This document shows positions 2,837-29,219 of a stretch of DNA of 64,000 nt, piece by piece. The notes under the pieces were generated by a model. That model was not told the DNA's origin. It ran no database searches and was given only the letters and a program-made list of their open reading frames with translations. Source of the DNA: Catenuloplanes niger (lineage in GTDB: Bacteria; Actinomycetota; Actinomycetes; Mycobacteriales; Micromonosporaceae); assembly GCF_031458255.1 (NCBI RefSeq), contig NZ_JAVDYC010000001.1, forward strand, positions 8,728,501 through 8,792,500, written 5' to 3'. A program made the position numbers and the translations under genes. Each line of letters opens with the position of its first letter. Position 1 is the stretch's first letter.

Positions 2837-2957
2837 CGTGCGATTGTCTCCCGTCGCCACCCGCGACGCGGCGCCGAGGCGGCTTCGGCGAGCCCCGGCC
2901 GACGGTGCTCACCCGGGACCGGTGGTCCGGCCACGCGCGTGGGAGGCGCGCCGCCGC

Positions 2958-3926
2958 TCAGTGTGGGTGCGTGGCCGGGCCGGCGAGGGACTCGCCGAGG
3001 TCGCTGCGGTAGTAGAGGACGCTGCGACCGTAGCGGGCGCGGTTGAGCAGGCCGGCGCGGGACAGCAGGCGCAGCTGCTGGTTGACGGCGGAGGTGGTGA
3101 CGCCGAGCCGCAGTGCCAGTTCGGTGGAGGAGGCGGGCTCGCCGAGCGCGGCCAGCAGCGTGGCCCGGGCGCCGCCGAGCAGTTCGCGGACGGCGCCGGC
3201 GTCCGGTGCGGTCGCGGTCGACCACATCGCGCCCTGGCCGCGCGCCGGATACATGATGACCGGCGGCAGCGTGTCGTCGGCCGTGATGCAGGCGCGGTTG
3301 ACGAACATCGACGGCACCAGCGTCACGCCCTCGCCCCGCACCGGGCGCAGCCCGGACAGCCCCGAGGCCAGGCGTACGTCGAGGTGCCGGCCGTCGAAGG
3401 TCACCCGCGGGGACAGGCCGGTCAGCGCGGCACCGAGGCCGGCGCCGGCCGCGACCCGGCCGCGGTGCAGGATGTCGGCCTCCAGCACCGCGCGCATGCG
3501 CGGCCAGGACGGCGCGAAGCACAGGCGCCACGCGGCGGCAAGCGCGTCGATCATGCGGCGGACCACCGTCGCGTGGTCACCGCGGAACACGCCGGGGACG
3601 GTGCCGTGCACCCGTTCCAGGTCGGTGCGCAGCCGTTCCGGGGTGATCCGGGCGAGCGCGGCCAGTTCGTCGTCGATGACGGTCAGCGGCGACGCGGGGC
3701 GCGGGTTGACGAAGTCGGCCACCCAGCGGCGGTCGTCGACCAGCGCGTACAGCGGGGCGAGGTCGAGCAGCGGCAGCACCGGCGCGATCCGCTCCATCCA
3801 CGGGCGCTGCAGCGGGTACGCCTCCGGGAACCGCAGCGCCCGCAGGCCCATGCCCAGCTCGCTGAGCGGGGAGACGCCGAACCGGATCGCGGTCACGTCC
3901 GACGGCTCCAGCACGTACCTGATCAT
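2958..3926 (-). CDS. ArsR-family winged-helix regulator with N-terminal DUF5937-like domain
   Basis: A 322-residue regulator. The C-terminal 90 residues form an ArsR-type winged helix (ATLLAALGEPASSTELALRLGV, TTSAVNQQLRLLSRAGLL, then a YGRSVLYYRS wing), while the N-terminal 220 residues match the DUF5937 architecture of large actinobacterial ArsR proteins. No metal-binding Cys cluster is visible, so a non-metal ligand is likely. The start is ATG 3926 (MIRYVLEPSD). It is divergent from the MFS transporter starting 55 bp away, which it probably controls. Confidence 0.85.
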   Translation of the reverse strand: MIRYVLEPSDVTAIRFGVSPLSELGMGLRALRFPEAYPLQRPWMERIAPVLPLLDLAPLYALVDDRRWVADFVNPRPASPLTVIDDELAALARITPERLRTDLERVHGTVPGVFRGDHATVVRRMIDALAAAWRLCFAPSWPRMRAVLEADILHRGRVAAGAGLGAALTGLSPRVTFDGRHLDVRLASGLSGLRPVRGEGVTLVPSMFVNRACITADDTLPPVIMYPARGQGAMWSTATAPDAGAVRELLGGARATLLAALGEPASSTELALRLGVTTSAVNQQLRLLSRAGLLNRARYGRSVLYYRSDLGESLAGPATHPH

Positions 3927-3981: not shown

Positions 3982-5301
3982 GTGACCACGACAACCGCGC
4001 TCGTCCGCGACGACCCCACCCTCCGCCGGCTGCTCACCGTGACCGCGGTCGACACCGTCGGCCGGGGCGCGTTCTTCACGCTCACCTCGCTCTACCTGAT
4101 CGGGGTGGCCGGCCTCCCGGCGGTGACCGTCGGGGTCGGGCTGACCGTGGCCGGGGGCGTCGGCGTGCTCGGCTCGCTGGCGTTCGGGCACCTCGCGGAC
4201 CGGTGGAGCTCGCGCCGCATGCTGGTCGCGTTGCACGTGCTGCAGGGCGGCGCGCTGACCGGGTACGTCCTGGTCCGGGACCTGCCGACGCTGATCCTGG
4301 TCGCGTCGCTGGTGATGCTGGCGCAGCAGGGCGGCGCCTCGGTGCGGTCCGCCGCGATCGGCCGGGCGTTCCGGGGCGATGAACGGGTACGGATCCGGGC
4401 GCTGATGCGGACGGTGACGAACGCGGGCATCGCGGCCGGCACCGCGCTCGCCGCGATCCCGCTGGCGATCGGCAGCGCGAACGCCTACCGGGTCACGATG
4501 GTGGCGGCGGGCCTGCTGTTCCTCGGGTCGGCGGTGCTGCTGCTCGGCCTGCCCGCGGCGCGGATCGACGCGCGGCCCGCACCGGACGGCCCGGCCGGAC
4601 CGCGGGTCGCCGGCCCGTACCGTGATCGGAGGTTCCTGCTCCTGGCCGCGCTCAACGGGATCTTCGGCATGCAGTTCGCCGTGTACGAGATCGCGGTGCC
4701 GCTCTGGGTGGTGCACCACACCGAGGCGCCGGACGTGCTGGTGTCACCGCTGCTGCTGATCAACACCGCGCTGGTGATCGCGCTGCAGGTGCGGCTCAGC
4801 CGCGGCACGGCCGATCTGCGCGGCGCCGCTCGGGCGATGACCTGGGCGGGCTGGCTGATGGCGCTGGCCTGCCTGCTCTGGGCGGTCGCCGGTGAGCTGC
4901 CCGCGATCGCGGCCGTGCTGGCGCTGCTGGTGGCCGCGGCCGTGCACACGCTCGCCGAGATCACCTCGAGCGCGGCCGGCTGGAGCATCAGTTTCGAGCT
5001 GGCGCCGGCCGGTGCGATCGGCGCGTACCAGGGCGTCTACGGCACCGGGTTCGCGCTCGGTGCGATGGTGGCGCCGCTGGTGGTGACCGCGACCGCGATC
5101 GAGCTGGGCACGCCGGGCTGGGCGCTGCTCGGCGTGCTGTTCCTGACCGCGGCGCTGGCCACCCGGGTCGTCATCGCCCGGATCCCGCCGACCGGGACGC
5201 CGGAACCCACGGCACCGGAACCCACGGCACCGGAACCCACGGCACCGGAACCCACGGCACCGGAACCCACGGCACCGGCGGCCCGGGTTCAGGAGGCGTA
5301 G
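3982..5301 (+). CDS. MFS transporter
   Basis: A 439-residue membrane protein of the major facilitator superfamily with about 12 hydrophobic segments. The loop after segment 2 carries the MFS signature (FGHLADRWSSRRML). The start is a GTG near 3982; the in-frame GTG at 3979 is equally possible. The C-terminal tail is a run of PTAPE repeats encoded by a 15-bp tandem repeat. Divergence from the ArsR-type regulator suggests a regulator/exporter pair; substrate unknown. The last 13 bp overlap the convergent gene at 5289. Confidence 0.85.
   Translation: MTTTTALVRDDPTLRRLLTVTAVDTVGRGAFFTLTSLYLIGVAGLPAVTVGVGLTVAGGVGVLGSLAFGHLADRWSSRRMLVALHVLQGGALTGYVLVRDLPTLILVASLVMLAQQGGASVRSAAIGRAFRGDERVRIRALMRTVTNAGIAAGTALAAIPLAIGSANAYRVTMVAAGLLFLGSAVLLLGLPAARIDARPAPDGPAGPRVAGPYRDRRFLLLAALNGIFGMQFAVYEIAVPLWVVHHTEAPDVLVSPLLLINTALVIALQVRLSRGTADLRGAARAMTWAGWLMALACLLWAVAGELPAIAAVLALLVAAAVHTLAEITSSAAGWSISFELAPAGAIGAYQGVYGTGFALGAMVAPLVVTATAIELGTPGWALLGVLFLTAALATRVVIARIPPTGTPEPTAPEPTAPEPTAPEPTAPEPTAPAARVQEA
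5201..5275 (+). repeat. 15-bp tandem repeat x5 (PTAPE tail)
   Basis: Five exact copies of CGGAACCCACGGCAC in phase with the reading frame, encoding the Pro/Thr/Ala/Glu tail of the MFS transporter. Exact copies imply recent slippage and likely length variation between strains. Confidence 0.95.
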
Positions 5302-5644: not shown

Positions 5645-6622
5645 ATGCGCCGCATGATCGGATCGCCGGCGCTGGAGATGCTGTGGGAGCCGGACGACCC
5701 CCGCCGCGCGCTCGAGGACCGGTTCGGGTTCGGCGACGGGGAGGCGGCCGGCCGCTGGGTCACCGCCGTGCTGGCCGAGCACTGGGGCGTGCGCGCCGGG
5801 TCCTGCGAGCGGATCGTGATGAGCGCGGGCAACGCGCTGGCGTGGATCGGCACGCCGTCCGGCCGGCTGGTCGCGAAATGGTCGGTGGTGCCCGCGCGTT
5901 TCCCGCGTCTGACGGAGACCGCGCGGCTCACGCACTGGCTGCACGGCCGGGGCCTGCCGGTGTCGGCGCCGGTCCCGGCGCGCGACGGCCGTCTCCAGGT
6001 GGTGGCCGGCCGGGTCTCGATGCACCTGCAGCGTGAGGTCGTGGGCGACCTGCTCGACACCGCCGATCCCGGCCAGGTGCGCGCGGCCGGGGCCGTGGTC
6101 GCCCGGTTGCAGGACGCGCTGGCCGGCTACCCGGACGCGGACCGGTTCCCGGCCGGCCCGGCCGCGCCGTTGACGGCCCGGGTGACCGGCTGGCTGGACG
6201 CGCACGCCGGCCACCTGCCGGCGGCGGCCCGGGACGCGCTGCGCGGGATGGTCGCCGCCGCGCCGCCGGACCGGTCCGCTCGCCAGCTCGTCCACGGCGA
6301 CGTCCGCTCCGCCAACGTGCTGTGGGCGCGCGGCGGGATCGCCGCGGTCCTCGACCTCGAGGAGGCCCGGCACGACCATCCGCTGGTCGAGCTCGCCCGC
6401 GCGGCGGTGCTGCTCGGCACCCGCTATCACGACTGGGGGCCGGTGCCGGCCGCCGTCCGCGCGGGGTTCGTCGCCGGTTACCGGTCCGTGCGGCCGCTCA
6501 CCGCGGCGGAGGAGGGCTGGCTGGACGTCCTCCTGCTCTGGCAGGCCCTGGCGGCGGTACCCGCCGGTGACGATCCGACCGGGTGGGGGCGCTCGGCGAC
6601 GAGCCAGCTGCCCCGGCGCTGA
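5645..6622 (+). CDS. Aminoglycoside phosphotransferase-fold kinase
   Basis: A 325-residue protein with the APH/choline-kinase fold. The catalytic loop reads LVHGDVRSANVLW (Asp 219 and Asn 224 positions approximately), and the metal-binding segment is AVLDLEEARHDHP, where the usual Asp lies in LDLE. The N-terminal lobe carries the Lys-containing strand RLVAKWSVV. Members phosphorylate small molecules (aminoglycosides, homoserine, choline and others); the substrate cannot be assigned. Start ATG 5645, with an alternative at 5654. Confidence 0.8.
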   Translation: MRRMIGSPALEMLWEPDDPRRALEDRFGFGDGEAAGRWVTAVLAEHWGVRAGSCERIVMSAGNALAWIGTPSGRLVAKWSVVPARFPRLTETARLTHWLHGRGLPVSAPVPARDGRLQVVAGRVSMHLQREVVGDLLDTADPGQVRAAGAVVARLQDALAGYPDADRFPAGPAAPLTARVTGWLDAHAGHLPAAARDALRGMVAAAPPDRSARQLVHGDVRSANVLWARGGIAAVLDLEEARHDHPLVELARAAVLLGTRYHDWGPVPAAVRAGFVAGYRSVRPLTAAEEGWLDVLLLWQALAAVPAGDDPTGWGRSATSQLPRR

Positions 6623-6757
6623 CGGCGAGGCCGCACACGGATTCGGTGCGACGCGGCACCAGCCCCGGGGTGGGAACGGCCGTTCCGGGCGGGGTGCGGC
6701 GGTTGGCCCGGCATGATCGGGTGAGGGGTACGGCCGATTCGAGGAGCTGGCGAGCGC

Positions 6758-9292
6758 ATGAAGCAGCGGACGGAGGCGGTGGCCGAGACGCCCGGGGCCG
6801 ACGTGCCCGGCATCGACGCGCCGGGGGCCGACGCCTTCGGGCTGACCGAGGCCGAGGCGGAGGCCCGGCGACGCCGGGGTGAGGCGAACACGGCGGTACG
6901 CGGCGGGTCGCGCGGCTACGGTGAGATCCTGCGGACGAACGTGTTCTCGTTCTTCAACCTGGTGCTGTTCGTGATCGGCGCGACCCTGCTGGCGCTCGGC
7001 CGCTACAGCGACGCGCTGATCAGCGTCGGCCTCGGCCTGATCAACGCGGTGATCAGCACCGTGCAGGAGATCCGCGCCAAACGCAAGCTCGACCAGCTCC
7101 AGCTGCTGGAACGCGCCACGGTCGTGGTCGTCCGGGACGGCGTGGAACGCACGATCGGGCCGGACCGGGTGGTCCGCGGTGACGTGCTGCGCGTCCGGTC
7201 CGGCGACCAGATCGTCGTCGACGGCCCGCTGCTGCCCGGCGGCCGCGTCGAGGCGGACGAGTCGCTGCTGACCGGCGAGTCCGACCCGGTGGTCAAGGCG
7301 CCCGGCGACGACCTGCTGTCCGGCAGCCACTGCGTCGCCGGGGACGGTCACCAGCTGGCCCGGGACGTCGGCGCGCACAGCCACGCGGGCCGGTTGACCG
7401 CGGAGGCGCGCCGGACCAGCACGGACGCGACGCCGTTGCAGCGGCGCATCGAGTTCGTGGTGCGGCTGGTGATGCTGCTGACCGCGTTGATGAGCGGGGC
7501 GATCCTCGCGCAGGCCGCGCTGGAGGGCTTCACGCTGCTGCGCGTCGTGCAGATCACCGCGGTGCTGTCCGGACTCATCCCGTACGGGCTGTTCTTCCTG
7601 ATCGCGCTCGCCTACACGGCCGGGGCGGTGCGCATCGCCCGGCGCGGTGCGCTGGTGCAGCAGGTCAACGCGGTCGAGTCGGTGAGCAACGTCGACGTGG
7701 TCTGCACCGACAAGACCGGCACGCTGACCACCGGCAACCTGACCCTGGCCGAGATCGTCCCGCTCGGCGGTCACGGCGACCGGGACGCCGCCGCGGCGCT
7801 CGGCGGGTTCGCGGCCGGCGTGTCCGCGCCGAATCTGACGAGCGCGGCGATCGCGGCCGCGTTGCCCGCCGCGGCCTGGACGGTTCGCGACGAGGTGCCG
7901 TTCACGTCGTCGCTGCGCTGGTCCGGGCTGGTCACCGAGCACGGCACCTGGGTGCTCGGCGCCCCGGGGGCGCTGCTGTCGCCGGTGCCGGACGCGGTCG
8001 CCGCCCGTACCGGCGAGGGGTTGCGGGTGCTGGTCCTGGCCCGGGCCGCCGGGGTGCGGGACGCGGCCGGGAAACCCGCGCTGACCGGGGTGGAGCCGGT
8101 CGCGCTGGTCGCGCTCGCGGACGAGTTGCGTGCCGACGTGGTCGAGACGGTCGCCCGGTTCCGGGACGACGGCGTGCAGCTGAAGGTGCTCTCCGGCGAC
8201 GATCCGCGCACGGTCGCGGCGATCGCGGCCCGGGCCGGGCTGGACGCCGGCGAGCCGGTGCCGGGCGCGGACCTCGACGGCCTGGACGACGCGCGGCTGG
8301 ACGAGCTGGTCGCCCGGACCGCGGTGTTCGGGCGGGTCGCGCCGGAGCACAAGGAGCGGATCGTGCGGTCGCTGCGCCGGCAGGGCCGCTACGTCGCGAT
8401 GATCGGCGACGGGGTGAACGACGCCCGCGCGCTCAAGCAGGCGCAGGTCGGTGTCGCGATGCGCAGCGGCAGCACGGTGACCCGGGACGTGGCCGACATC
8501 GTGCTGACCGGTGACTCGTTCGGGGTGCTGCCGCCCGCGCGGGAGGAGGGCCGCCGGATCATCGGCGGGATCGGCATCTCGCTGTACGTGTTCCTGGCCC
8601 GGGTCGGCAGCCAGGGCCTGGTGATCCTCGCGGTCACCATGCTCGGGATGGGCTTCCCTTACACGCCGACGCAGGTCGGGCTGACGCTGTTCACCGTGGG
8701 CATCCCGACCGCGTTCCTGACGTTCTGGGCCGCGCCGGCCCGCCCGGACCCGCACCTGCTGCGCAATCTGGCCCGGTTCGTGCTGCCGGCCGCGATCGTC
8801 ACCGCCGGGTTCGGCACCGCCGTCTACACCGCGCTCTATCAGGGCATCCTGCGCGGTTTCAGCTCCGGGCGCACGCCGGCGGAGGTGATCGACGACTTCG
8901 AGAGCTACACCGGGCTGACCTACGGCACGGACACCGACTTCACGGTCGCGGCGGCCACGATCGGCGCGCAGACCGGACTGTCCACGTTCTTCTGCTACGC
9001 GTCGTTCCTGCTGATCCTGTTCCTGGCCCCGCCCGGCCGGTTCTTCGCGGCCTGGACGCGGCCGGCCGGCGACCGGCGGCCGGCGTACCTGGTGATGGCG
9101 CTGGTCGTCGCGTTCACCGCGGTGCTGCTGGTGCCGGCGCTGTGGTCGTACTTCGGGCTGACCGGCCCGGCCGGGCCGGTCTTCGAGGTGGTGCTGGTGT
9201 CGCTGGTGCCGTGGTTCGCCGCGCTCACCGTCGCCTACCGTTACCGGGTGCTGGAGCGGCTGCTCGGGCTGGACGTACCCCCGGGGCGGTGA
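6758..9292 (+). CDS. Cation-translocating P-type ATPase (CtpE-like)
   Basis: An 844-residue P-type ATPase. The actuator motif is LTGESDP, the phosphorylation motif DKTGTLTTG (Asp 318), and the hinge motif GDGVNDARALKQA. Paired hydrophobic segments precede the actuator and phosphorylation domains, and about six follow the hinge. There is no N-terminal heavy-metal-binding CxxC domain. The compact layout and length resemble mycobacterial CtpE, a calcium-uptake ATPase, so a divalent cation is likely; this is inference. The stop codon sits in the loop of a terminator hairpin. Confidence 0.85.
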   Translation: MKQRTEAVAETPGADVPGIDAPGADAFGLTEAEAEARRRRGEANTAVRGGSRGYGEILRTNVFSFFNLVLFVIGATLLALGRYSDALISVGLGLINAVISTVQEIRAKRKLDQLQLLERATVVVVRDGVERTIGPDRVVRGDVLRVRSGDQIVVDGPLLPGGRVEADESLLTGESDPVVKAPGDDLLSGSHCVAGDGHQLARDVGAHSHAGRLTAEARRTSTDATPLQRRIEFVVRLVMLLTALMSGAILAQAALEGFTLLRVVQITAVLSGLIPYGLFFLIALAYTAGAVRIARRGALVQQVNAVESVSNVDVVCTDKTGTLTTGNLTLAEIVPLGGHGDRDAAAALGGFAAGVSAPNLTSAAIAAALPAAAWTVRDEVPFTSSLRWSGLVTEHGTWVLGAPGALLSPVPDAVAARTGEGLRVLVLARAAGVRDAAGKPALTGVEPVALVALADELRADVVETVARFRDDGVQLKVLSGDDPRTVAAIAARAGLDAGEPVPGADLDGLDDARLDELVARTAVFGRVAPEHKERIVRSLRRQGRYVAMIGDGVNDARALKQAQVGVAMRSGSTVTRDVADIVLTGDSFGVLPPAREEGRRIIGGIGISLYVFLARVGSQGLVILAVTMLGMGFPYTPTQVGLTLFTVGIPTAFLTFWAAPARPDPHLLRNLARFVLPAAIVTAGFGTAVYTALYQGILRGFSSGRTPAEVIDDFESYTGLTYGTDTDFTVAAATIGAQTGLSTFFCYASFLLILFLAPPGRFFAAWTRPAGDRRPAYLVMALVVAFTAVLLVPALWSYFGLTGPAGPVFEVVLVSLVPWFAALTVAYRYRVLERLLGLDVPPGR

Positions 9293-26448: not shown

Positions 26449-26710
26449 GCCTGTCCCCCTCTTGGTGAGCCCGCCCCCCGGCAGGCCGATAACACAAAGG
26501 ACCATCAGTGTCCGTCGGCGACCGGCGCGGGGGAGCAGATATGGCCGCGATCGCATGTTTGACCGACGAATCAGTCAGTGCGGGCCGCGAAAGGGCATGA
26601 ATCAACGGTACGGACGCGCGGCGGAGCGGCAGAGGTAAGGCGCGACCCGCTCACCGGGCCACCGGTAACTCGATTGCCCGGCCGTCCGCACGCGTGTGAG
26701 GATCGGTCCC

Positions 26711-26839
26711 GGGTCGCTAGCTCAGCGGTCAGAGCACCGGACTTGGTAGCGCGCTCGCTCTCCGTCCCGGACGGTCATGAGGGTACTTCCTTCTCCTTTC
26801 TGGATCCGGCGGTCCGAGGTTCGAATCCTCGGCGACCCA
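26711..26839 (+). tRNA. tRNA-like gene with expanded anticodon loop
   Basis: A complete tRNA body can be folded: a 7-bp acceptor GGGTCGC/GCGACCC, a D arm GCTC/GAGC, anticodon stem CCGGA (26737-26741)/TCCGG (26805-26809), a 5-nt variable loop, and T arm CGAGG-TTCGAAT-CCTCG. Discriminator A is 26839; no CCA is encoded. The anticodon loop is 63 nt instead of 7, so no anticodon can be assigned. The insert contains a CCGTC/GACGG hairpin and is too short for a group I intron. It may be a tRNA-like regulatory RNA or a disrupted tRNA; intact stems argue for continued selection on structure. It ends 43 bp before the next gene. Confidence 0.6.
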
Positions 26840-26882
26840 CTTCCGGTAATGGCTGCACGCCGGTGACGGACGGAGGACGCGC

Positions 26883-29027
26883 GTGCTGGAGAAGCTGATC
26901 ATTCAGAGGACGCTGCGCGTGCCGGCGAGCACCGGCGTGGCCGGTGACGGTGCGGCCGTGGCCCGGCAGCTGGACGCCGTGCTGCTCGACGCCGGGTTCA
27001 CCGCGTCCCGGCAGCTGCTGGAGCACGTCGGCGGGCTGGCGCCCGGGCCGGCGACGGATCTCGCGGTCACGGTCGTCGGCGCGGTGCGCGAGCTGGTCGG
27101 CGACCACGTCCGGCACAACGCCTACTTCCTGCGCTTCCCGGACGGTGTGCCGGACACGACGGAGTTCTGGCTGGAGCGGCTGCGCGCGGCCGTGCTCGCC
27201 GGTGGCGGCGACCCGGCCGGCGCCGTGGTCCGGCCCGGGCTGAACCTGCTCGACCTGCCCGGCTACGGCACCTACCGGCACACGTACGCCGAGCTGCTGG
27301 CCGCGCACGACGACCTGATCGCGTCGGCCGGTGACCGGTTGACGCGGCTGCACCTGGGCGGCACCGCGCAGGCCGAGGCCGAGCGGCTCTACCTGTCGAT
27401 GGCCGGCGCCAGCACGCCGCTCGGCGCCGCGGACCTGGCGGTCCTGAGTCAGCTCGCGGTCGCCTGCGCGGACGGTCCGCAGCCGGCCACGATCCCGGTC
27501 CGGGAGAACCGGGCCGTGCTCAACGGGGTCCGGCTGGTCCTCGGCCGCCCGCTGGTCGCGGTCGACACCACGACCGACGTGCTGCGGCTGGCCTGCCACG
27601 TCTCCGGCGGCGACGCCACGCTCGGCGCGCCGACCCGCTTCCGGGCGTTCCCGCGCCGGGAACGGCGGGTGCTGCTGGCCGCGCTGCACGACGTCGTCGG
27701 CGCGAGCCCGGCCAAGCTCGCCGACGTCGCCCGCCACGCGGAGCGGTGGAAGCGGCTCGGCGAGCGGCTGCACCCGCACGAGTACCCGCGGTGGCCGCAC
27801 GCCGCGGACGTGTTCGCGGTCGCGCGCGGTGAGCGGCGGGTGCCGTCGCTGGCCGGCCGGGCGGAGGCGGCGATGCGCGCCGGCGACGTCGGCGCGGCCA
27901 CGTCCGTGCTGTCCGCCGCGCCCGGCCTGCTGCTGCGTGCCGCGGACCGGCTGCTGCGGTCGGCGCCGGCGGACGCGCGCGCCACCGTCGTCGGCGCGGT
28001 CACCGGAGCGCTCGGGACGGCCTCCGGGCGGGTGCTGTGCTCGCTGCGGGAACACGTCGCGAACCGGCGCGCGCCCGCGTCCGCCCGCATGTTCGTGGGC
28101 CGGTCGCAGCGCGCGTGGGTCGGCCCGGACGCGCGTCCCCCGCTGCCCGGTGACCTGGTCGACGAGCTGTCGGCGCTGCTCGACGCGGAGATCGGCGCGC
28201 GGCTGCCGGTGTTCGACCGGCCGCTGCTGGTCGACCCGGCCGTGCTGGACGTGGCGCTGCCGCTGTCCGGCAAGGCCTCCGCCGGTGGTTTCGCGGTGCT
28301 GCCGCGCGGCTCGCGGGCCGTCGTCACCGGCGACCGGCTGCGCTTCTTCACGTACTGGCGGCAGAGCGCCCGGCGCACCGACTACGACCTGTCCGTGCAG
28401 CTGCTCGACCGGGACTTCCACACCGCCGGCCAGGTGTCCTGGACGAACTACCGCCACGGCGGCGTGGTGCACTCCGGCGACCTGACCGAGGCCGCCGACG
28501 GTGCGACCGAGTTCATCGACGTACCGCGCAACAAGGCCTGGGCGTACGTCGTGCCGCAGGTGAACGTCTACGCCGGCGAGCCGTTCGACGCGGTCGCCGA
28601 GTCGATGTTCGGCTACCAGACCCGCGGCCGGGGCCGGCGTGGCGCGCCGTTCGACGCGCGTACCGTGCGGGCCCGTTCGGAGCTGCGCGGCAACGGCCGG
28701 GTGGCGCTGCCGGTGGTGTTCGCCGCGGGCAGTCGCGGCTGGGAGGCGATCTGGCTGCACCTCTACCTGCCGGGTACGCCGTCGTTCAACCAGGTCGAGG
28801 ACAACACGTTCACCGTCGCCGACCGGGTACGCGCGCTGGTCGAGCGCGACTACCTCACGGTCTCCTACCTCGTCGGCCTGTGGCGGCACCGCACCGACGT
28901 GCGCGTGTGGGACGGCCGGCCACCGGCCGAACCGGTCACGTTCGTGGGCCTCGAGGCCCCGGACGGCCTGCCGGACGGCTCCGACGTCTACCTGCTGGAC
29001 CGGCTCGCCGAGCTGCTCCCCGAGTAG
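26883..29027 (+). CDS. MXAN_6230/SCO0854-like protein lacking the RING finger
   Basis: A 714-residue cytoplasmic protein starting at GTG 26883. N-terminal helices (LLDAVL-type, YFLRFPDGVPDTTEFW) are followed by a helical-repeat middle (WKRLGERLHPHEYPRWP, GRAEAAMRAGDVGAA) and a C-terminal beta domain of about 250 residues (FFTYWRQ, RTDYDLSVQLLD, VSWTNYRHGGVVHSGD, VVPQVNVYAGE) resembling TerD-type stress domains. This order recalls the MXAN_6230/SCO0854 family, but no Cys cluster for its RING finger is present. The match is from memory. Its position behind the tRNA-like gene suggests an RNA-linked or stress role. Confidence 0.6.
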   Translation: MLEKLIIQRTLRVPASTGVAGDGAAVARQLDAVLLDAGFTASRQLLEHVGGLAPGPATDLAVTVVGAVRELVGDHVRHNAYFLRFPDGVPDTTEFWLERLRAAVLAGGGDPAGAVVRPGLNLLDLPGYGTYRHTYAELLAAHDDLIASAGDRLTRLHLGGTAQAEAERLYLSMAGASTPLGAADLAVLSQLAVACADGPQPATIPVRENRAVLNGVRLVLGRPLVAVDTTTDVLRLACHVSGGDATLGAPTRFRAFPRRERRVLLAALHDVVGASPAKLADVARHAERWKRLGERLHPHEYPRWPHAADVFAVARGERRVPSLAGRAEAAMRAGDVGAATSVLSAAPGLLLRAADRLLRSAPADARATVVGAVTGALGTASGRVLCSLREHVANRRAPASARMFVGRSQRAWVGPDARPPLPGDLVDELSALLDAEIGARLPVFDRPLLVDPAVLDVALPLSGKASAGGFAVLPRGSRAVVTGDRLRFFTYWRQSARRTDYDLSVQLLDRDFHTAGQVSWTNYRHGGVVHSGDLTEAADGATEFIDVPRNKAWAYVVPQVNVYAGEPFDAVAESMFGYQTRGRGRRGAPFDARTVRARSELRGNGRVALPVVFAAGSRGWEAIWLHLYLPGTPSFNQVEDNTFTVADRVRALVERDYLTVSYLVGLWRHRTDVRVWDGRPPAEPVTFVGLEAPDGLPDGSDVYLLDRLAELLPE

Positions 29028-29219
29028 GATCGGCCACAGCCGAGGCCATGCGGGCGCTTCCTCCTACACCGTTCGATTCGGGACCTCCGCGCGAGCGGAG
29101 GACTGGCGCACAGCTCCCGCGCTCTCCTCGGCCCGTGCGGACCGGCGCCGGACCGGCGCCGGCCCGGCGTGCGCGCGGAACGCCTTCCGCTACCGGGCGA
29201 CACGTGCTCTGCTCGGTGC

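Follow-up and report, generated by a model that had tools for sequence, protein, structure and literature searches.

Within a 64-kb stretch of the Catenuloplanes niger genome (GCF_031458255.1, contig NZ_JAVDYC010000001.1; 9.74 Mb, single contig), referred to here as the window, a gene for a protein of 714 amino acids is flanked by two small RNAs, a transfer RNA (tRNA)-like RNA on its 5' side and a hairpin RNA on its 3' side, which carry one common structural module in circularly permuted form. The locus probably encodes one ribonucleoprotein (RNP), resembling the particles formed by Y RNAs and independent of Ro, in which the module would bind the protein and the tRNA-like arm would dock or divert enzymes acting on tRNA. 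The protein, which has a helical part and a TerD-like domain, is related to the MXAN_6230/SCO0854 family but lacks its RING.

The tRNA-like RNA extends from 26711 to 26839 on the plus strand. The Rfam tRNA model RF00005 aligns to it over the whole length with 57.4 bits (E 9.3e-10, gathering score 29), which is the outcome of a covariance-model scan that an earlier reading of the sequence alone had proposed; neither ARAGORN on the window nor a genome-wide tRNA search reported an element at 26711-26839. As this sequence-only reading had stated, every stem is fully paired, that is the acceptor stem with seven base pairs (26711-26717/26832-26838), the D arm with four (26720-26735), the anticodon stem with five (26737-26741/26805-26809), and the T arm with five (26815-26831), and a loop of 63 nucleotides with no anticodon replaces the usual loop of seven. 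CCA is not encoded. It had also rightly seen no group I intron core, as none of the Rfam intron families, group I or other, matched in the RNA. When the element, with most of its loop omitted, was compared to 39 tRNA sequences from 31 loci of its own genome (some represent the same tRNA with differing ends; in total 63 tRNA matches exist in the genome besides the element), tRNA-Lys(UUU) came first with a score of 28.0, followed by tRNA-Lys(CUU) with 27.0 and 26.5 and then by a Met tRNA with 23.5. The likeness to tRNA-Lys(UUU) lies in the acceptor, D, and T arms, the difference in the 63-nucleotide arm in place of the anticodon loop and in the missing anticodon and encoded CCA. A 181-base query containing the tRNA-like RNA found a single match in the genome, and no exact copy free of the insert, which the sequence-only reading had named as an argument against itself, is present there; Lys tRNAs occur elsewhere in the genome. 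Directly 5' of the element, at 26694-26704, lies GTGTGAGGATC, which by eye is alike in several relatives and may be a promoter element.

A second RNA, which the sequence-only reading had missed, is located directly 3' of the protein gene at 29040-29131 on the plus strand and bears the module of the tRNA-like RNA in circular permutation. The shared order of the module is stem A, an internal loop YCATG/CGCTCT, stem B, and CUUCCUUCUC. In the hairpin RNA of the window these parts are stem A CCGAGG/CCTCGG, the internal loop CCATG/CGCTCT, stem B with one mismatch, and CTTCCTCCT, together with a large loop. In the tRNA-like RNA the counterpart of these helices occupies 26748-26787, with stem B at 26748-26756/26779-26787 (nine positions, two of them mismatched here), the internal loop GCTCT/TCAT, and stem A at 26762-26766/26770-26774 with a closing loop of three nucleotides. 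The hairpin RNA has its ends at stem A, whereas this stem is capped by the short loop in the tRNA-like RNA, whose stem B faces the anticodon stem. The eight-base-pair stem B terminates in a C-G and a U-A pair in 68 of 69 hairpins and in all 24 tRNA-like RNAs and is followed by CUUCCUUCU. The pyrimidine stretch CTTCCTTCTCC at 26786-26796 (plus strand), which in the tRNA-like RNA covers the end of stem B and continues past it, is invariant in its first ten positions in all 24 aligned sequences, and a close form of it occurs in the hairpin RNA family. Up to E 10 Rfam yielded only one chance match for the hairpin RNA in the window and no match of a Y RNA family to the window RNAs, and at gathering score it named no family for the hairpin RNA in 14 related loci. 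The hairpin RNA is an RNA family absent from Rfam 15 at gathering score.

Covariance models were built for the hairpin RNA (R1) and the tRNA-like RNA (R2). The initial identification was made by pattern, and as the models were built from these loci their source sequences score by construction; the window's hairpin RNA, which belongs to the set of its own model, yields 74.1 bits with R1, and the tRNA-like RNA 129.4 bits with R2. Covariation was examined in an alignment of 69 of the 73 extracted hairpins (one was over-long and the others were repeats; two further sites, in L064 and L094, without a recognised closing strand were left out) and in an alignment of 24 of the 25 tRNA-like sequences, from which one repeat (L086) had been removed. 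Among the hairpins 96.6% of the pair cells are standard, as compared to 39-54% in slid controls, nine pairs are doubly changed, and 140 cells with double changes are found versus 49.5 in shuffles, a value not reached by any of 500 shuffles. Among the tRNA-like RNAs 96.2% of the pair cells are standard and 12 pairs have double changes versus 6.1 in shuffles, including four of the five pairs of the anticodon stem, so the compensatory changes that the sequence-only reading had called for are present; in 16 of the 24 stem B has one unpaired position, the same in each. The tRNA-like structure is supported because its stems covary, single-sequence folding alone being insufficient with an unremarkable fold energy (z -1.36).

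To examine the linkage between RNAs and protein, 84,980 species were scanned with one genome each, yielding 331 relatives of the protein, the best 80 of which were used. The hairpin RNA is found in 72 of these 80 loci, in 70 within about 200 nucleotides of the end of the coding match and in two at 1.2 and 2.8 kb downstream. The tRNA-like RNA is found with more than 100 bits in 38, both RNAs occur in 30, and no locus has neither; the eight in which R1 did not find a hairpin (L061, L066, L069, L074, L080, L081, L084, and L090) all have the tRNA-like RNA. The link of the tRNA-like RNA to the RING-less protein proposed by the sequence-only reading therefore stands at these loci, but the hairpin RNA is the more general partner of the protein (72 versus 38 of 80). 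Similarly, its expectation of a syntenic pair with conserved stems and a variable loop held for the synteny and for the stems, which covary, but not for the loop, which is conserved and holds the module shared with the hairpin RNA. This also bears on the idea that the element might have no relation to the protein and be either a tRNA gene interrupted by a short intron of unusual type or a tRNA copy in decay. Its genuine tRNA fold, into whose anticodon loop a sequence is inserted, would suit such an origin, which is nevertheless hardly credible given the failure of intron families to match, a conserved loop equal to the hairpin module, the retention of the element at almost half of the loci, and the Lys tRNAs present elsewhere in the genome.

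The tRNA-like form occurs in Micromonosporaceae and in addition in Allokutzneria, in one of two Actinophytocola, in Kineosporia, and in an actinobacterial metagenome-assembled genome; the R2 scan did not find it in Micromonospora echinofusca (L059) and Salinispora fenicalii (L064). In Micromonospora antibiotica (L060, 4001-4918) the frame of the protein ends after 305 amino acids though the match goes on, and both RNAs are retained. In Micromonospora rosaria (L053, 765-890) the tRNA-like RNA lies 3.1 kb upstream, apart from the gene. Normal tRNA genes stand 5' of the gene in Actinokineospora, Kutzneria, and Actinophytocola; an ancestral tRNA neighbour as their explanation was dropped because the isotypes differ (Arg; Trp, Pro, Phe, and Leu; Ser and Asn).

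A survey of 396 genomes of the phylum, in which two scans were limited to 2 and 10 scored candidates in each genome, found the family protein in seven. The four RING-less ones (G000, G007, G186, and G219, the last with the protein split over two frames) are the same four which have an R1 match, and this match is adjacent. With filters off, weak R1-like RNAs of 29.7, 27.8, and 18.9 bits adjoin the RING-type genes of G165, G240, and G409, respectively, and G019 reached only 13.0 bits. R1 matches were likewise obtained beside annotated RING-type genes of Streptomyces (27.1 bits) and Kitasatospora (27.4 bits), and the RING-type paralogue in the genome of the window has a weak module RNA directly upstream (L051, 2614-2680, minus strand, 20.5 bits). 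The sequence-only reading had coupled the RNA to a RING-less protein, which needs the correction that RING-type members also have weak module-like RNAs alongside.

In 33 of 37 pattern-bearing loci in the group L088-L131 a -10-like box TAnnnT is found 14-16 nucleotides 5' of GAGG, and in 200 shuffles no offset was seen more than three times. Outside the window's own group the hairpin RNA hence looks to be separately transcribed, judged from the promoter-like sequence. In the group of the window it may have another promoter or may be cut from the mRNA. The sequence TAGGAT at 29025-29030, overlapping the stop codon and 17 nucleotides 5' of GAGG, could be a -10 box but was dropped as a candidate, since relatives of the same group lack such a box at the usual place. 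With the RNAs on the same strand and closely spaced to the gene, and with the hairpin of the window's group following the stop codon like a 3' untranslated region without a recognised -10 box, both might be cis elements of the mRNA of the protein, such as a leader, an attenuator, or a 3' stabiliser. This appears quite improbable, as the position varies: the RNA precedes the RING-type and Deinococcus genes and some of those in phages, follows the gene in the majority of the actinobacterial loci seen, and stands on both sides here; the -10-like box of the other group, the distant tRNA-like copy of L053, and the existence of hybrids with tRNA domains argue against it as well.

The protein is encoded by an open frame with a GTG start at 26883-29027 on the plus strand, beginning 43 bp past the tRNA-like RNA on the same strand as had been read from the sequence. 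Its only NCBIfam match is NF041916 (RING_SCO0854), with 341.5 bits versus a cut-off of 600 and a best stretch covering residues 319-654, and Pfam gave no match. The protein thus shares with the MXAN_6230/SCO0854 family homology across the helical and TerD-like parts and differs from it by staying under the cut-off and by lacking the RING cluster: it has only three scattered cysteines (195, 238, and 386), and the same pattern test was positive on the RING copy of the genome. The AlphaFold2 model, built on an alignment of 47 proteins, has a mean pLDDT of 81.7 and consists of an N-terminal helical domain (residues 1 to about 400) and a C-terminal beta sandwich. Foldseek aligned the model to Klebsiella TerD (2kxt) with E 1e-5 and 15% identity, a likeness of the C-terminal fold to which a helical domain is fused in the window protein. 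Pfam TerD matches one of 47 family members (E 0.039). Both the domain architecture and the family assignment without a RING cysteine cluster had been foreseen by the sequence-only reading. Homology to the TROVE domain of Ro was rejected, neither profile nor fold supporting it: PF05731 is not among the Pfam families matching the 47 members up to E 10, hhalign against four actinobacterial TROVE proteins gave a probability of 0.4% with shallow profiles, and no Ro entry is among the 50 Foldseek matches listed for the whole model and the helical half. No TROVE gene was found in the window's own genome.

Tandem copies of the RNA stand beside the gene on plasmids, phages, and chromosomes, which recalls type III toxin-antitoxin systems, where the hairpin RNAs, frequently in several tandem copies, would neutralise a toxic protein from the adjacent gene. 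Such a function is highly improbable here, as the RNA follows the gene in the majority of the actinobacterial loci seen, only one copy is present at many loci, and some RNAs bear tRNA domains like that of YrlA; moreover, three family proteins matched no PADLOC model, and the listed fold matches include TerD with no toxin nuclease recognised.

Homologues outside Actinomycetota were found by protein searches of plasmids and phages, and their RNAs by R1 with filters off. Beside the homologues R1 scored 35.6 and 32.2 bits in Niallia, 25.4 in Variovorax, 20.2-29.0 on three Deinococcus plasmids, and 19.9 in Vibrio. Of six phage loci five have matches, with best scores of 19.5-54.5 bits. As background, 83.7 kb of other actinobacterial DNA gave at best 13.3 bits, and a stray match of 15.2 bits was seen elsewhere in L148; scores near 20 are weak alone because this background was measured on actinobacterial rather than AT-rich DNA. 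Fourteen RNAs from seven distant loci, in an alignment fitted to R1, show 94.2% pairing and 71 cells with double changes versus 20.9 in shuffles. In Hymenobacter (L154) and Segatella (L164) the gene is preceded by unpermuted tRNA-like RNAs with an extended anticodon arm, scoring 51.7 and 43.2 bits with the Rfam tRNA model, 52.6 and 43.8 with R2, and only 13.7 and 14.8 with R1. Their internal loops, by eye GAATT/TCAAC, are unlike the actinobacterial letters, and Segatella lacks CUUCCUUCU.

Viral contigs were scanned with a pattern derived from the RNA alone. Among at least 120 stretches, 14 of the 25 containing both stems encode the family protein as compared to one of the 95 others (Fisher p 9e-11). 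In some phages the joining is reversed, and a module hairpin encloses a permuted tRNA consisting of the T arm, the acceptor closed by a short loop, and the D arm. Such hybrids were seen in Rhodobacter phage RcXuper (L158), Rhodococcus phage Weasels2 (L160), and the viral contigs L204, L241, L243, L249, and L260, with L243 and L249 having the same RNA, and all four hybrid stretches found by pattern (three distinct RNAs) encode the family protein. They were counted only where the flanks form the module, because the regular expression for permuted tRNA picks up normal tRNA genes in tandem as well (L015, L021, and one place in L249). The YrlA model RF02553 matches the tRNA-like part of the hybrids in L158 and L204 with 40.7 bits each (E 1.3e-5 and 1.4e-5, model positions 24-84 and 23-89 of 114).

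Y RNAs are the known partners of Ro, and Ro/Y-RNA particles handle damaged RNA. Like the Ro60 (Rsr)/Y RNA particle, the system described here has small RNA genes beside one cognate protein gene and a stem module, joined in some RNAs (in the window, at 38 of the 80 loci, in the two Bacteroidota, and in the phage hybrids) to a tRNA-like domain. The permuted order of the phage hybrids is also that of a candidate Y RNA in L147, a permuted tRNA that precedes a TROVE gene by about 0.3-0.4 kb, in the position expected for a Y RNA. An operon with the layout rsr-yrlBA-rtcBA and, in Deinococcus, a Y RNA that tethers PNPase to Rsr are described in PMC7790460. A Variovorax plasmid locus is reminiscent of this layout, having rtcR on the opposite strand and separated by three genes from the family gene (annotation 'RING finger family 4'), a sigma-54-type site TGGCAC-N5-TTGCA 73 bp before the family gene (5904 versus 5977), and the RNAs downstream. 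In phage Weasels2 rtcB lies about 3 kb downstream, and in the Vibrio locus a gene of the RNA-ligase family is nearby. The sequence-only reading had pointed to tRNA-like RNAs that accompany some RNA-repair and Ro/Band-7 loci, and this Y-RNA and repair context was a good lead. The system differs from the Ro particle in that the protein is not a TROVE protein, that the YrlA match is limited to the tRNA-like part, the protein-side stem being the module here, that in Micromonosporaceae and the two Bacteroidota the tRNA body has normal order with its ends at the acceptor stem, and that most hairpin RNAs have no tRNA domain. The locus is not classed as a Ro/Y RNA particle because neither a TROVE domain nor a full-length YrlA match was found when tested.

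In the proposed mechanism one RNP would be formed by the helical-TerD protein and the two small RNAs, with the common module as the presumed protein-binding site by which the protein grips them. In the sequence-only reading the tRNA-like RNA was a putative structured cofactor or sensor read by this protein. The hairpin RNA, with its module open at stem A, would scaffold or regulate the protein. In the tRNA-like RNA the permuted module is joined via the anticodon stem to the tRNA-Lys-like body, the phage hybrids with their reverse joining being comparable to the tRNA-like domain of Ro-associated YrlA, and this arm would show the shape of a tRNA to tRNA-acting enzymes and bring them to the RNP or divert them. 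The particle would probably act as Ro/Y-RNA particles do, in response to RNA damage. A less probable variant of this concept keeps the RNP but regards the tRNA-like arm as a decoy or sensor for anticodon nucleases, which, by mimicking tRNA-Lys with nothing to cut, would occupy the nuclease or report to the TerD domain. The body nearest to tRNA-Lys with its anticodon loop replaced, the occurrence of the RNA-protein pair in phages, and the role of competitive inhibitor proposed for the tRNA-like domain of YrlA by the authors of PMC7790460 would agree with a decoy. It is unlikely as the core function, though, because at 42 of the 80 loci only the hairpin RNA is present and there is no tRNA body.

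A number of observations weigh against the Y-RNA-like RNP. On the side of the RNAs, a pair-types measure of the tRNA-like alignment was reached by 13 of 500 shuffles. A -10-like box precedes the hairpin RNA in one of 26 loci of L052-L087, mostly Micromonosporaceae and the window's own group, and for this reason separate transcription of the hairpin is unsupported in that group. The distant RNAs mostly score 16-36 bits with R1, to be compared with 13.3-15.2 for stray matches. On the side of the protein, RNA binding by the helical half is a guess because this half alone (model pLDDT 84.6) found no match in the Protein Data Bank at E<=0.001. As to the linkage, absences in the survey of 396 genomes are soft because so few candidates were scored per genome, the Salicola phage L159 has the protein and no R1 match, and in 11 of the 25 viral stretches with both stems no family protein was seen in the fetched DNA. 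As to the Ro comparison, the YrlA matches stay below gathering score (40.7 versus 69), are confined to the tRNA-like domain, and were obtained in two of 11 loci scanned at E<0.01; a YrlA match of 26.4 bits in Weasels2 proves nothing alone because an ordinary tRNA neighbour (L158, 2003-2062) scores 26.3. The rtcR link was seen in one plasmid type (four near-identical records), with no rtcA or rtcB annotated within the fetched 14 kb.

For the Y-RNA-like RNP beyond the window, the balance tilts modestly towards a second, Ro-independent system of this kind present in phages and in no fewer than five bacterial phyla. It would comprise a helical-TerD protein, either RING-type or RING-less, module RNAs that frequently stand in tandem, and module-tRNA hybrids whose tRNA body is permuted in phages and in normal order in Micromonosporaceae and Bacteroidota, corresponding to one circular topology opened at two places. 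The literature search on SCO0854 and MXAN_6230 found no paper, and none on this RNA-protein pair, of which an earlier description is possible. If the concept is right, the widespread MXAN_6230/SCO0854 family of TerD proteins would have a partner RNA, and Ter-type proteins, RNA repair, and phages would be linked. If an unrelated protein family carries similarly built RNAs, the tRNA-like arm would be a reusable part, and a comparison of the two independent systems could address its role. Normal tRNA maturation may act on the unpermuted tRNA form as a substrate.

Some further observations were made on the viral sequences. The sole protein-bearing stretch among the 95 others is L180, which has two weak R1 matches. 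The viral contig L196 has a clear module RNA of 64.9 bits at 4809-4875 on the minus strand, and no family protein was found there. In L184 a GOLLD RNA of 184.7 bits (6428-6894) contains a tRNA match (6492-6564), and the family protein and two module RNAs are on the same stretch. In Xanthomonas phage XacN1 (L157) a tRNA-resembling sequence with a terminal CGTTGCACCA lies amid module hairpins, where Rfam reported nothing at E<=1. Finally, Rhodobacter phage RcXuper has an unannotated transfer-messenger RNA (tmRNA) gene at 2881-3297 directly 5' of its module RNAs (tmRNA_permuted 108 bits, alpha_tmRNA 106 bits).

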